Assembly (NCBI RefSeq): GCF_003721245.1
Contig: NZ_RIZG01000011.1
Location: forward strand, 1-64,000
Source: Marinomonas hwangdonensis
Lineage (GTDB): Bacteria > Pseudomonadota > Gammaproteobacteria > Pseudomonadales > Marinomonadaceae
Direction: 5' to 3'
DNA: 64,000 nucleotides
Shown one piece after another: positions 24,910-29,981 of this stretch (position 1 is its first letter; every line of letters starts with the position of its first letter). A program made the translations under genes and the position numbers. A model generated the notes under the pieces. It saw only the letters and a list, made by a program, of their open reading frames with translations. It did no database searches and was not told where the DNA came from.

Positions 24910-25053
24910 ATTATTGTAGGTCGCGGCTTCAGCCCGACAACCTCTCCACATGAAGCCATCATCAGCCCGATACAGACTTTTGTACATGACACCAAGCCAA
25001 GCGGCGTTTCTCTTCGAAACTATCACCTACCTCATCGAAACACCGCTTGGCTT
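24910..25053. repeat. Composite REP-like plus hairpin repeat, copy A
   Basis: The left part (24914-24938) is a REP-like unit, GTAGGTCGCGGCTTCAGCCC and following bases, itself an imperfect inverted repeat. The right part (24994-25053) is a long hairpin with 17-base arms (24994-25010 and 25037-25053, one mismatch or G-U). A second copy of both parts lies at 25360-25462 and a third REP-like unit, inverted, at 28912-28935. The hairpin ends 2 bases from the stop codon of the antitoxin gene. Confidence 0.75.
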
Positions 25054-25055
25054 TC

Positions 25056-25286
25056 TTATGTCTCTAACTCATCGATAGAATCAAGCAGTGCTCTAGCATT
25101 AGCTCGTGAACCCAACAAATAAGCCGTTTCTTGTATAGACTGATAATCCGCCAACGACATCATGACAACTGGCTTACCACTTTTATGCGTAACAATAACT
25201 GGCGCATGATCATCACAAACCTTCTTCATCATTTTCACTAAATTGGCTTGTACTTCTTCACAGCCCATCGTATCCATACTCAACAC
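25056..25286 (-). CDS. Orphan Phd/YefM-type antitoxin
   Basis: A 76-residue protein of the Phd/YefM antitoxin family: EEVQANLVKMMKKV, HAPVIVTHKSGKPVVMMSLADYQSIQETAYLLGS, ARALLDSIDELE. It closely follows E. coli YefM but stops right after the DNA-binding and dimer region and lacks most of the C-terminal toxin-neutralising tail. The hairpin repeat starts at the stop codon, so the tail may have been cut by the repeat. No RelE/YoeB toxin gene lies downstream. An inner ATG at 25277 (MDTMGCEEV) fits family N-termini better. Both sides carry copies of the same composite repeat. Confidence 0.75.
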   Translation of the reverse strand: MLSMDTMGCEEVQANLVKMMKKVCDDHAPVIVTHKSGKPVVMMSLADYQSIQETAYLLGSRANARALLDSIDELET

Positions 25287-25623: not shown

Positions 25624-26745
25624 ATGACTCCAACCAAACATATAAAACGCCAATTGAAAGACTTTTCACCTGCAAGAGAAAGCGCTCCAGGATTGATATG
25701 GGGTAATAATGCAGAACGCTGCCCAATTTCAAGAAGCCAGTTCCCTACTCCAAACCTTTTACTGTTTCTTTTACAAGGAATCTGTCAATTCCCCTTAGGA
25801 TATCCTGAAGAAAAGATGCATTGGATAATCCCGTTTACCTATAAAGGGGCGGACTGAGCAATTTCGAATGAGAAATTCGGTTTATACTTTTACTCTGTAA
25901 AAAATACTGAAGCAAAGTCAAAAGAAGTTTTAGGAAAATTTGAAAAAGCCCTCAAATCAGCTGAAAAAAATATTCTTGAAGACTTTGCTAAACAACAAAT
26001 AAAAGACGGTAATATAACCATCTCAAACCAATTCAACCAGCTTGATGATCGATATCACTATTTTAGAGAACAAGCAGAGTCGAATTACACTCCACAAGAA
26101 ATGAAAGGCGATATAAAGGATATTAAAGAAATAGTTGAACTCTTAAGGTCAGAAAGCAACACTAGTCACGAAGGAGGATATAACGCACTAGCGATGATTG
26201 ATGCTTATTTTAGTCGTTTAGAGCACTTCTTAGTACTTGCACTTCCTTTTTCCAATTACGACAGAGAACGAGATGATCTAACAAAGTTTGTCAGCAAAAA
26301 CTGGTCAGAAAAACTTAAGAAAGTCCTCAGCATTAAAACAAACCAACATTATGAGACATTGAAGCAATTAAAAGAGAAATATCGAAATACATTTGCACAT
26401 GGTGGTTTTGAAAAGGAAAGCCAATCGTTTTTCTTTCATCTTGGGAATATTGGAATTGTGCCAGCCAGCATGTCTGGTAGAAAAGATAGCGTCCACTTCA
26501 ATCATGTCCCGATAGATAAAGAAATATTCGAAAATATCTGCTCACAGCTCGATGCTTTTGATGAATATCTGTCCGACTCCGCACTTCCAGATGCTTGGAA
26601 ATTCGCTCAAAGTAGTCTCAATCTCGCCATGGACAATAAAAGCTTACAAGAAATGCTTGAGGTAGCGAAAGATCCAGATACATTTGATGCTTGGATTGAA
26701 AGACAGCAAGATCTTTCCGACAGATATACTAATGCAGAATATTAA
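25624..26745 (+). pseudogene. HEPN-like protein gene interrupted by an in-frame TGA
   Basis: One reading frame runs from ATG 25624 to 26745 (373 codons) and is broken only by TGA at 25855-25857. Read through, it gives KGAD-x-AISNEKFGFYFYSV, where x would suit Trp (TGG to TGA). The codons after the stop encode coherent protein (VLGKFEKALKSAEKNILEDF). The C-terminal half contains YRNTFAHGGF (joined residues 253-262), an R-x4-H motif like that of HEPN ribonucleases and abortive-infection proteins. No other domain is recognised. The DNA is more AT-rich than its surroundings, suggesting transfer. It may be a true nonsense mutation or a sequencing error; an internal ATG at 26101 could give a 214-residue C-terminal product with the HEPN-like motif intact. 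Confidence 0.7.
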
Positions 26746-26771: not shown

Positions 26772-27911
26772 TTACCCAAGATCCAACCCATACCTCGCGT
26801 TCCTGCCGCCGCCTTCCAAGCGGTACAAACACTCTTTTTCAACCAAGTCGCTGAGGTCTCGGGTTGCGGTGGCTTTTGAGCTGCTGGTGATGCTGATGTA
26901 TTTTTTGGCACTAAGTCCGCCTTCGAAGCCGTCGGATCCTGCACTAAAGAGCTTGTTGAGCACTTTCTTTTGGCGTTCGTTCAGTTCGGTATGTTGATGT
27001 TTTTCCCAGTATTTGGCTTTTTTTAATACAAAGTCGACTTTATGAGCGGCTTCTTGCTGTGCCAGCAGAACCGAGTCGACGAACCATGTTACCCAGTCGG
27101 TGATATCTAAAGTAAATTGGCTGGCTTTGTTTAGTCCATCGTAATAGGCGTTTTTATCTTTCTCGATTATTGTCGACAAGCTAAGTAGTGGCGGTCGATT
27201 GAGATCTTGAGCCAATGCCATTTCGGCAATCGCTCGCCCTACTCGACCGTTGCCATCATCAAATGGGTGGATGGTTTCAAACCACAAGTGCGCAATCGCT
27301 GAGCGAACAGGACCAGAGAGAACGATCTCTCTCTCTGCTTTTAAAGGGTTAGAGCGGTTAAACCAATCTAAAAATCGGTTTATTTCTGTATTGACTTGAT
27401 GCGCTGGCGGCGCTTCGTAATGCACTTTCTCATAGCCAATTGGGCCAGAGACTATTTGCATAGGTTCTGCGGAATCTCGCCATTGACCGACTTTTAGGTT
27501 ACGAGGCAGCAGATTACTTTCTTTTTGCGGAAGAACTAATTGATGCCAATGAAACAAGGTAGATTTTGTGAGTTCGCTAGCAAAGTTATTACGCACGTCG
27601 ACCATCAAAGCGGCCATACCTTCAGCTCGTGGATCGGCGACTCGCGTTGGTGGATTACTCAAGCCTAAGAAGTTCTTAATAGAAGACCGCACATCTTCAC
27701 GATCCAATCGCTCGCCTTCGATTTGGCTGGTGTTGATAGCTTCGCTCACCATGAGATCGATATAGGCATCGTACTGCAAGGTTTTTTCAAGCTGGCCCAT
27801 TCCGCCAGACAAACGACCAGCCTCTAACGCGTACTGATACAAAGCATCTCGGCACTGAGTTTCGTCAAAGGTGAAATTTGGCCAATCAGGATGTTGCCAG
27901 CTGTATTTCAT
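26772..27911 (-). CDS. Fic family protein with DUF4172 head and C-terminal winged helix
   Basis: The 379-residue protein begins with a DUF4172 segment (YSWQHPDWPNFTFD). It has an N-terminal inhibitory-helix motif TSQIEGE (61-67, fitting S/T-x3-E-G) and the intact Fic core HPFDDGNGRVGRA, which carries the catalytic His and phosphate loop. A C-terminal winged-HTH (YISITSSSKATATRDLSDLV) follows. Fic enzymes transfer AMP (or other nucleotides) to target hydroxyls; the internal glutamate is known to restrain activity. The HTH and the two inverted repeats just upstream suggest that it controls its own promoter (inference). It converges on the broken HEPN gene. Confidence 0.92.
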   Translation of the reverse strand: MKYSWQHPDWPNFTFDETQCRDALYQYALEAGRLSGGMGQLEKTLQYDAYIDLMVSEAINTSQIEGERLDREDVRSSIKNFLGLSNPPTRVADPRAEGMAALMVDVRNNFASELTKSTLFHWHQLVLPQKESNLLPRNLKVGQWRDSAEPMQIVSGPIGYEKVHYEAPPAHQVNTEINRFLDWFNRSNPLKAEREIVLSGPVRSAIAHLWFETIHPFDDGNGRVGRAIAEMALAQDLNRPPLLSLSTIIEKDKNAYYDGLNKASQFTLDITDWVTWFVDSVLLAQQEAAHKVDFVLKKAKYWEKHQHTELNERQKKVLNKLFSAGSDGFEGGLSAKKYISITSSSKATATRDLSDLVEKECLYRLEGGGRNARYGLDLG

Positions 27912-27916
27912 AGTAT

Positions 27917-27987
27917 GAGCCGATTAAGTAAACATTCGGCTCAGAATAGCATTATTTTATGAGCCGAATAAACCTATTATCCGGCTC
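27917..27987 (-). promoter_or_regulatory. Two tandem inverted repeats upstream of fic
   Basis: GAGCCGA-N12-TCGGCTC occupies 27917-27942, 5 bases upstream of the fic start. A second site, GAGCCGAAT ... CCGGCTC, spans 27961-27987. A third is at 28860-28886 beside the fic remnant. Each pairs GAGCCG with CGGCTC about two helical turns apart, the look of a dimeric repressor operator. The Fic HTH is the nearest candidate binder. Confidence 0.65.
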
Positions 27988-28169
27988 ACAGGCTTTTATT
28001 TAGTCATCAGTGCAAATCATCAAGACACAACGCCTGACTTTTCAATGCTATCTTTTCACTTAATAGATTGGACAAAAAACGTTAAAAAAGATACAAAAAC
28101 CACCAGAGCAATAAATTTACGGGCAGCACCAGCAACAAACAAATTCAAGAAGGAGCGTAGAGAATTAAA

Positions 28170-28799
28170 ATGGTCGATTTCACCAATGGTAAATGGATTT
28201 TTGAGCCAAAATTTAGTGAAGTGAACACAGACTCAGTCTCTATAACAACTGAGCCAAACACAGATCTCTGGCAACGCAGTTACTATGGCTTTCGTAATGA
28301 CAATGCTCCCGCATTACAGATCGAATCTGAAGAAAATTTCACCTTTACCGCCAAAGCCAATTTCACTTACCACACTCAATTTGATCAATGTGGTCTTATT
28401 ATCTACCTCGATAATGAGAATTGGTTCAAAGCCTCCATTGAATACGAAAACCAAGCATTTTCAAGACTAGGAAGTGTCGTAACGAATTTTGGTTACTCAG
28501 ACTGGGCCACCTCAGATATTCCCTTACCAAAAGAAATCTGGTATCGCTTAAGCCGTCGAGGAGCTGATTTCCTGATTGAATCATCATTTGATGGTATCGT
28601 TTTCAATCAAATGCGCGTATTTCATTTGCATCAGCTTGGTGAGACAACAGTCGAAATGGGTAAATGCAACCCGCCACAACCCGCAGAGAAATCGGTGAAA
28701 TTCGGTGTGTATGCGTGCAGCCCTCAGAATTCATCTTTTACCGCTACGTTCACCGATATGAGTTTAGAGCCTTGTAAATGGCTAGCTCACTCCGCCTAA
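28170..28799 (+). CDS. DUF1349 (concanavalin-like fold) protein
   Basis: A 209-residue protein of the DUF1349 family, with a lectin/glucanase-like beta-sandwich: FRNDNAPALQIESEENFTFTAKANF, QCGLIIYLDNENWFKASIEYEN, and VKFGVYACSPQNSSFTATFTD. The family has been called regulation of enolase protein 1 in yeast, but bacterial roles are unknown. No signal peptide is present. It sits between two copies of the fic 5' end and operator, so it appears inserted within or between duplicated fic loci. Confidence 0.8.
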   Translation: MVDFTNGKWIFEPKFSEVNTDSVSITTEPNTDLWQRSYYGFRNDNAPALQIESEENFTFTAKANFTYHTQFDQCGLIIYLDNENWFKASIEYENQAFSRLGSVVTNFGYSDWATSDIPLPKEIWYRLSRRGADFLIESSFDGIVFNQMRVFHLHQLGETTVEMGKCNPPQPAEKSVKFGVYACSPQNSSFTATFTDMSLEPCKWLAHSA

Positions 28800-28825
28800 A
28801 CCCAACGTCAAAGATAAAGCTTAGA

Positions 28826-28887
28826 CAATCAGGATGTTGCCAACTGCCTTTCATCATGTGAGCCGATTAAGCGAATTATTCGGCTCA
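28826..28887 (-). pseudogene. Remnant of a second fic gene (operator and first codons)
   Basis: This stretch is about 80% identical to 27883-27943, the fic start and its proximal operator. Read on the minus strand, the operator-like repeat (28860-28886) is followed by an ATG and codons for KGSWQHPDC, against KYSWQHPDW in the intact gene. The match ends there; the sequence then runs into the 3' end of the DUF1349 gene. Confidence 0.7.
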
Positions 28888-28911: not shown

Positions 28912-28935
28912 TGTCGGGCTAAAGCCACGACCTAC
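28912..28935. repeat. REP-like unit, copy C (inverted)
   Basis: On the minus strand it reads GTAGGTCGTGGCTTTAGCCC and following bases, differing at two positions from the REP-like part of copy A. It marks the right side of the accessory pocket, next to the lplA pseudogene. Confidence 0.65.
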
Positions 28936-28968: not shown

Positions 28969-29981
28969 CTAAGAAACCGCCTTCACTAACCACGCTTTCA
29001 TTTCTTCTAAATCCATTTTATGGTCTGGAAAGCTTTCAATGAGCGAATCGACGCAAGCTGCGATGGCGTCTGGTCGATACATTACACCAACAAGTTTTGC
29101 TGAAAGCTGTTCTATTGGATCGAAAAACAAGCTGTCGGTGAAGGTTTGTGCAGCGGTAATGTGAGCGTTGCTCAGATCAAGGTGAATTTCGACGCCGCCC
29201 CATTTGAAGCGTTCGTCTAGGGTGTGAGTAAACTGCGGGGATTTACCAAAATTCCAATCCCAGCTTTGCTGCTGTTCAAATTTTTCAAGAAAACCAGGAA
29301 GATCTGGCAAGGCGTCGGGGGATATTTCCTCTATGACTGGCACTTCATCAAAGTATTCACAAAACGCTTCGACAATGGCGTCACAAACGAGCTGATGATC
29401 AATTGCTGGATACAAACTGTTTAAATTGGTGACTCGTGAGCGCACGGAGGTGATGCCTTTTGACTGGAGCTTTTTTACATCGGGATTAAGATAATTGGCT
29501 AGGCGGCTTAAATCCGCATGCAGCAACAAAGTACCATGATGAAAGCCGCGACCCTTAGTCTCTTTGTAGGCGGAACCAGAGAGTTTTCGCATTTCTTCAC
29601 CTTCGCCGACGACTAAGTCATTGCGACCATTTGCGTAGCCTTCAATTCGAGGCTTCTTCAAGCCTTGTAACACGATCTCAGTAGACACTTCTTTGTTGTA
29701 TTCAGGCTTACCTGCCATGAAAGTAAAATTGGTATTGCCCAAGTCATGAAACACCGCACCGCCACCACTTTGGCGACGAGCAAGGTGAATCTTGTCTTGC
29801 TCCATCCTGTTTGATTCTGAAAGCGGCCAATCACTACCGTATCGGCATTACGCCACAGAAATAACACCCGTTGATTCGCAGGCATAGTGCGGAAAATACA
29901 ATCTTCCACAGCAAGATTAAAGTGGGGGTTATTGGAATGGGAAAGTAGAATTCGGCTAGCCATGGCGTTTTCTCTTGTCAC
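28969..29981 (-). pseudogene. lplA: Lipoate-protein ligase A gene with a frameshifting deletion
   Basis: LplA attaches free lipoate to the E2 and GcvH domains of dehydrogenase complexes. The first part (about 29981-29814) encodes [35 protein letters not shown]. The rest, in another frame from the ATG at 29805, encodes [39 protein letters not shown] and continues to a normal C-terminus. From memory, E. coli LplA has nine residues between the matching Asn and Met; here only 8 bases separate them, so about 19 bases are missing and the frame shifts. The lipoyl-adenylate site ([11 protein letters not shown]) lies in the downstream frame. A product from the internal ATG would lack the N-terminal strand and is unlikely to be active. 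Confidence 0.78.

Follow-up and report, generated by a model that had tools for sequence, protein, structure and literature searches.

The stretch of Marinomonas hwangdonensis DNA analysed here (64,000 nucleotides, hereafter the window, on the 80-kb contig C3 of a 3.46-Mb genome, G000) raises the question of how a DUF1349 gene came to lie between the 5' end of an intact fic gene and what looks like the remnant of another. The minus strand of the window carries carB, greA, an lplA-like gene, the fic stump and fic, and the plus strand carries DUF1349, a gene for a 214-aa protein and pgi (Table 1), where carB, greA and pgi are presumed gene names and lplA is an assumed label, adopted here for a lipoate-protein-ligase-like gene.

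Table 1. Features in and around the fic and DUF1349 genes of the window.
Feature	Position	Strand	Basis
Intact fic (DUF4172 + Fic domain protein, 379 aa, motif HPFDDGNGRVGR)	26772..27911	-	
Putative operator O1 of fic, palindrome, 1 base shorter than in relatives	27916..27943		Sequence and alignment
Putative operator O2 of fic, palindrome	27960..27988		1 mismatch to pattern
Putative ghost of parD upstream region	27994..28063	+	blastn to G023, G025 and G068; alignment
DUF1349 gene, 209 aa, apparent purifying selection	28170..28799	+	
5' stump of second fic, codons 1-16 including start codon	28806..28854	-	
Putative orphan operator O3	28859..28887		0 mismatches to pattern

The starting point is a pair of direct copies, 27863-27928 and 28806-28871, which lie 943 nt apart from start to start and are identical at 54 of 66 bases. 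The near copy comprises codons 1-16 of fic and the start of its operator, and when the operator is included the match extends to 28887 (80% of 82 nt). When the entire window was shuffled 50 times with its dinucleotides preserved, the 66-mer never matched better than 34; in the actual sequence, leaving out the far copy, its best score was 33 on the same strand and 36 on the opposite one. The repeat is genuine and lies far above chance. The first-pass annotation had described a 61-base repeat about 0.9 kb away at roughly 80% identity, and had matched KGSWQHPDC with KYSWQHPDW. Both observations are borne out, the repeat being slightly longer and the far copy reading MKGSWQHPDCLSFIFD on the minus strand where fic reads MKYSWQHPDWPNFTFD; to these can be added, as a point absent from that annotation, that fic has two tandem operators and the far copy retains one. 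The far copy is what remains of the 5' end of another fic gene, here called the stump. The same stump is found between the lplA-like gene and DUF1349 in M. shanghaiensis (G064) and M. arctica (G023), where fic homology stops at the same base and the similarity runs through the 16 codons rather than being limited to the operator, the reverse of the outcome that the first-pass annotation had named as refuting its reading.

The intact gene encodes a protein with Pfam matches over cut-off to DUF4172 (E 3.1e-26) and to the Fic domain (E 3.2e-14), and its dN/dS is 0.05-0.09 (six pairs, four genomes). The Fic motif HPFDDGNGRVGR at residues 215-226 and TSQIEG at 61-66 are similar to the Fic and N-terminal inhibitory motifs of CbFic2 (PDB 8CIL), described as DUF4172, Fic and a winged HTH (PMC10628234). 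No HTH was matched by Pfam in the window protein, and its alignment with 8CIL (phmmer E 9.6e-87) spans residues 3-375, covering the wHTH region of CbFic2. However, CbFic2 has a different host and role, and no specific operator is named for it in that portion of the source (PMC10628234). The PADLOC model for the SoFic defence family also matches (E 9.8e-45), although phmmer detects weak similarity to SoFic chains of solved structure (E about 1e-8), confined to residues 202-292. Together, these matches point to a protein of the SoFic/CccR kind (DUF4172-Fic-wHTH). CccR of Yersinia pseudotuberculosis, a Fic protein carrying an HTH at its C-terminus, acts on palindromes in its promoter to repress its own transcription, and is also a secreted effector and toxin (PMC9755527). 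In the window, two palindromes in tandem immediately precede the fic start codon, and by analogy with CccR the Marinomonas Fic probably represses its own gene through them. Defence proteins and toxins are among the members of this Fic family, for which a tandem palindromic operator is predicted.

The operator pattern, TGAGCCGAATAA-N5-TTAWTCGGCTCA with at most three mismatches, is matched in 18 of 48 Marinomonas genomes, every match lying inside the greA-pgi interval, and the reversed pattern gave no match in the same 48 genomes. Palindromes of this sort also precede several, though not all, of the DUF4172-Fic genes inspected in 22 distant relatives (17 drawn from 79 loci and five from another search), among them those at L075, L076, L079, L104 and L128. 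It is conceivable, though unlikely, that the stump has been kept for this element: O3 could be a working site to which Fic binds (as a decoy, or to regulate lplA or DUF1349), or could form an RNA hairpin that terminates lplA transcripts, rather than being debris. O3 does fold as a hairpin, but the z-score for the fold of the whole region is -1.64, with 14 of 200 shuffles as good. Between G000 and G064 there are no differences in the 29-base operator and eight in the next 53 bases (Fisher p 0.046), although this is one comparison whose bounds were chosen afterwards, and G023 is not independent. The operator also persists where no fic relic is detected (G024, G026 and G057), yet the ends of decayed genes persist anyway under internal deletions.

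The wider setting was surveyed across the 48 genomes, the interval or at least one of its ends being taken for the 47 relatives and annotated with an HMM built from 12 intact fic genes, with the operator pattern at up to four mismatches, and with toxin-antitoxin (TA) proteins, whose labels are based on Pfam for one example per protein. Both pgi and carB are present in all 48 genomes, and in 42 they share one contig with a gap below 30 kb (the others being G005, G006, G023, G025, G027 and G029). Intact fic occupies the interval in 12 genomes, relics found by the HMM in seven more that have no intact copy (G001, G010, G056, G061, G066, G067, G068), and an operator alone in the three named above; in G022 the interval is free of traces, and a fic relic lies at the end of another contig. 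Altogether, therefore, 23 of the 48 genomes carry a fic trace, 22 of them within the interval, and 25 carry none. A count of fic DNA by blastn gave 19 of 48, below the HMM and operator survey, with G006 contributing just a 46-base match elsewhere. By the HMM, seven genomes (G000, G010, G021, G023, G025, G030, G064) carry at least two fic copies or relics, and G068 would be the eighth if an operator is accepted as a second trace; half of the intact genes (6/12; G007, G017, G027, G031, G034, G063) stand alone, with no further trace in their genomes' intervals.

What lies between the traces differs from genome to genome. DUF1349 is found there in G000 and G064 and beside the stump in G023, parDE in G023, G025 and G068 (parD only in G030), yefM-yoeB in G025, and higBA in G010, G021 and G030; parDE adjoins fic in G023 and G025 and a mini-fic relic in G068. 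Cargo and fic do not alternate strictly, since in G064 yefM-yoeB, parDE and higBA follow in succession with no fic relic detected between them. The interval further holds genes for GmrSD_N, HEPN, RES, FRG, TIR and DUF2971 proteins, some of which match PADLOC. Because its bordering core genes are constant while the defence and TA genes inside it vary, it is a hotspot of the kind known as defence islands or TA hotspots, and as a kind of place it is already known. Unlike such islands, it has fic and fic scars between its cargo and relic alleles common to different species; this fic-framed layout is unusual, and among the entries listed by literature searches none, judged by title and start of abstract, dealt with fic-framed TA arrays in Marinomonas.

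The window's own cargo gene bears a trace of what preceded it. The DUF1349 protein (Pfam E 1.1e-62) has homologs at E 1e-10 or better in 6 of 48 genomes, four at the fic locus (G000, G023, G064, G066) and two (G012, G022) in array-like regions elsewhere; among the four fic-locus copies its dN/dS is 0.02-0.07 (six pairs), and both DUF1349 and fic look to be under purifying selection. Between O2 and DUF1349, some 70 bp resemble the region upstream of parD (78-80% to G023 and G025, 79% to G068 by blastn), a similarity that reaches the presumed ribosome-binding region and reads as a presumed promoter followed by a decayed ribosome-binding site. In G064 a separate parDE, elsewhere in the locus, carries the same upstream sequence. 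This ghost lies beside DUF1349 in all four fic-locus genomes, G023 retaining only its last ~25 bp because the other part lies across a rearrangement. Among seven genomes searched, parD was found in three (G023, G025, G064) and not in G000, G066, G022 or G012. Since the sequence between DUF1349 and fic is the ghost of a parD upstream region, the data support a reading in which DUF1349 occupies a former parDE slot next to a fic of greater age, of which the operator and 16 codons are left; the remainder of that fic may have been lost separately from the arrival of DUF1349 or jointly with it. The old parD upstream region may now drive DUF1349, and a promoter scan beside the gene, with one match on the other strand and no more than in shuffles, speaks neither for nor against such use.

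The stumps also bear on where the second fic came from. Those of G000 and G023 are 98% identical, and that of G064 is closer to the 12 intact fic genes (84-91%) than that of G000 (77-87%). The G000 stump is nearest to the fic of G025 and G007 (87%, against 80% for its own), and the genome's own fic ranks 11th of the 12 in similarity to the stump in G000, 10th in G064 and third in G023; the relics are short, and their ancestry is therefore poorly resolved. The first-pass annotation had held that a second fic existed or was copied and was then replaced by DUF1349 at an exchange site, and had proposed a comparison of strains for tandem fic genes or different cargo. Both turned up, multiple traces in 7 of 48 genomes and parDE, yefM-yoeB and higBA as other cargo. 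The existence of the second gene stands, through the stump and junction in G064 and G023 and the multi-trace genomes, whereas a recent copy of the local fic does not, because that gene ranks 11th of 12; the exchange site is largely right in view of the varied cargo of relatives, but simple replacement of a fic gives way to capture of a parDE slot. A single duplication of fic in the window lineage, followed by insertion of DUF1349 between the two genes and decay of one of them, would make a recurrent exchange site unnecessary, and the direct orientation of both fic traces in G000 and G064 favours it, as does the common junction, which is consistent with a single old event; it is nevertheless a doubtful account, as the stump is nearer to fic genes of other genomes than to its own, five other genomes (G010, G021, G023, G025, G030) hold other cargo between fic traces, and a parD ghost exists in the slot.

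Taken together, these observations allow a model in which the greA-pgi interval is probably a turnover site for small toxin, TA and defence genes around an autoregulated fic, with DUF1349 in a parDE slot. In this model, local units would have existed as parDE divergent from fic, fic followed by yefM-yoeB, and fic followed by higBA, and horizontal DNA recombining via fic and its flanks would have set such units side by side, giving tandem fic genes with small cargo. Surplus fic copies would then have lost their middles, leaving the operator and/or end scars that are seen today, in an order that can be proposed only tentatively. On the lineage leading to the window, the fic that adjoins the lplA-like gene would have shrunk to its operator and 16 codons, and DUF1349 would have replaced parDE between this stump and the intact fic, leaving the parD upstream region behind. 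The stump and its identical junction in three species (G000, G064, G023) support the model, as do the fic traces of the genus survey, the TA genes between them in several genomes, the parD ghost, the confinement of the operator to the interval, and the relic alleles and breakpoint described next. Such scars show small toxin and defence genes replacing each other at a fixed site, down to the upstream region of a lost TA pair.

Relic alleles and one recombination breakpoint bear on the route of exchange. Mini-fic relics that share an internal deletion, as judged by visual inspection of an alignment, occur in different species, one type joining the operator to about codon 343 (G025, G056, G068) and a second occurring in G030 and G067. 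Between G000 and G023, the difference in fic rises from 2.4% to 11.9% near compared base 509 of 1123 (0 of 20000 shuffles). Mosaicism is firm for one pair, since only one of the 66 fic pairs scanned reached 0 of 300 shuffles, the next two standing at 1/300 and 3/300. The same two genomes are 96.7% identical in DUF1349 and 97.6% in the 5' part of fic, against 92.6% in carB, 92.2% in pgi, 89.4% in lplA and 85.6% in greA. This suggests that recombination through fic served as an exchange route; the breakpoint fits horizontal DNA recombining inside fic, although it does not prove that this is the usual route, and trees of the fic 5' and 3' parts, with many weak nodes, give only a hint. Three arrangements are awkward for a route through fic homology and also count against the model as a whole: G064, with its unspaced TA pairs; G066, in which DUF1349 and the ghost lie beside a decayed fic and the stump is absent; and G023, in which ~155 kb of chromosomal-type genes (G023:C2:24500-178500, L062-L069) separate DUF1349 from fic. 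The six solitary intact fic genes and the 25 genomes free of any trace count against the model too. A stronger version, in which fic is a reusable scaffold whose operator end and 3' end act as homology blocks for swapping TA and passenger genes, an array without a dedicated recombinase whose surplus copies become operator-keeping spacer scars, is speculative and rather improbable.

Two other candidates for movement were set aside. The 12 intact fic genes diverge right after GCGAGGTATGG or its variants, as at a site-specific junction at the 3' end, and the recombinase reading was dropped because several fic genes still share their last residues and stop. A mobile insertion in G023 was likewise dropped, the 155 kb holding chromosomal-type genes (read from their first residues) and pointing to a rearrangement or an assembly effect. 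In G027, pgi lies ~62 kb from carB, and large rearrangements thus have end points at the interval in both genomes. In a plasmid collection 29 records matched the query in part, and in no case did the match cover 80% of it.

Gene cassettes of integrons insert at attG sites, and arrays of this type resemble the interval in their small single-gene or TA cargo and in the DUF1349 and higBA relatives that lie in array-like regions of G012 and G022; they differ in that the repeated element here is the remnant of a protein-coding gene. That an integron integrase placed DUF1349 and the TA pairs here as cassettes, using sites other than the standard ones, is very unlikely, for although an apparent attC-like repeat lies 3' of the G012 DUF1349 among single-gene units mostly on one strand, the upstream junction of DUF1349 is GTTATGTGAA in both G012 and G022, higBA lies near DUF1349 in G022 too, and G000 itself has two integron integrase genes over cut-off, these lie on contigs C21 and C23 rather than C3, the 3' flank of the window DUF1349 goes directly into the fic stump without aligning with the G012 attC, and no attC turned up when four fic loci (the window's own, L055, L047 and L040) were scanned by pattern, a weak test since it missed a visible attC in L058. 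The single-gene array at L057 (G022:C3) has five ~183 bp repeats between its genes, and near it lie higBA, DUF1349 and an apparent IS200-like transposase.

Several smaller features of the window complete its description. The lplA-like gene (28969-29981) is split into two frames (ORFs 28969-29805 and 29658-29981) and is a single ORF of 337-343 aa in the loci of seven relatives, the split reflecting either a decayed gene or a sequencing error. The 214-aa protein (26101-26745) has no Pfam match and only marginal PADLOC matches, to HEPN-containing models (E 0.005), and its gene occupies the position taken in G017 by a HEPN gene that neighbours one for GmrSD_N. A PhdYefM antitoxin gene at 25056-25286, 63% like the YefM of relatives and with no yoeB match in the surveyed part of the window, is perhaps an orphan antitoxin. 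Finally, a 24-base sequence beginning TGTCGGGCTAAAGCC stands on both sides of the interval, at 28912-28935 and 24916-24939; it occurs at four places in the genome at up to three mismatches and appears to be REP-like.
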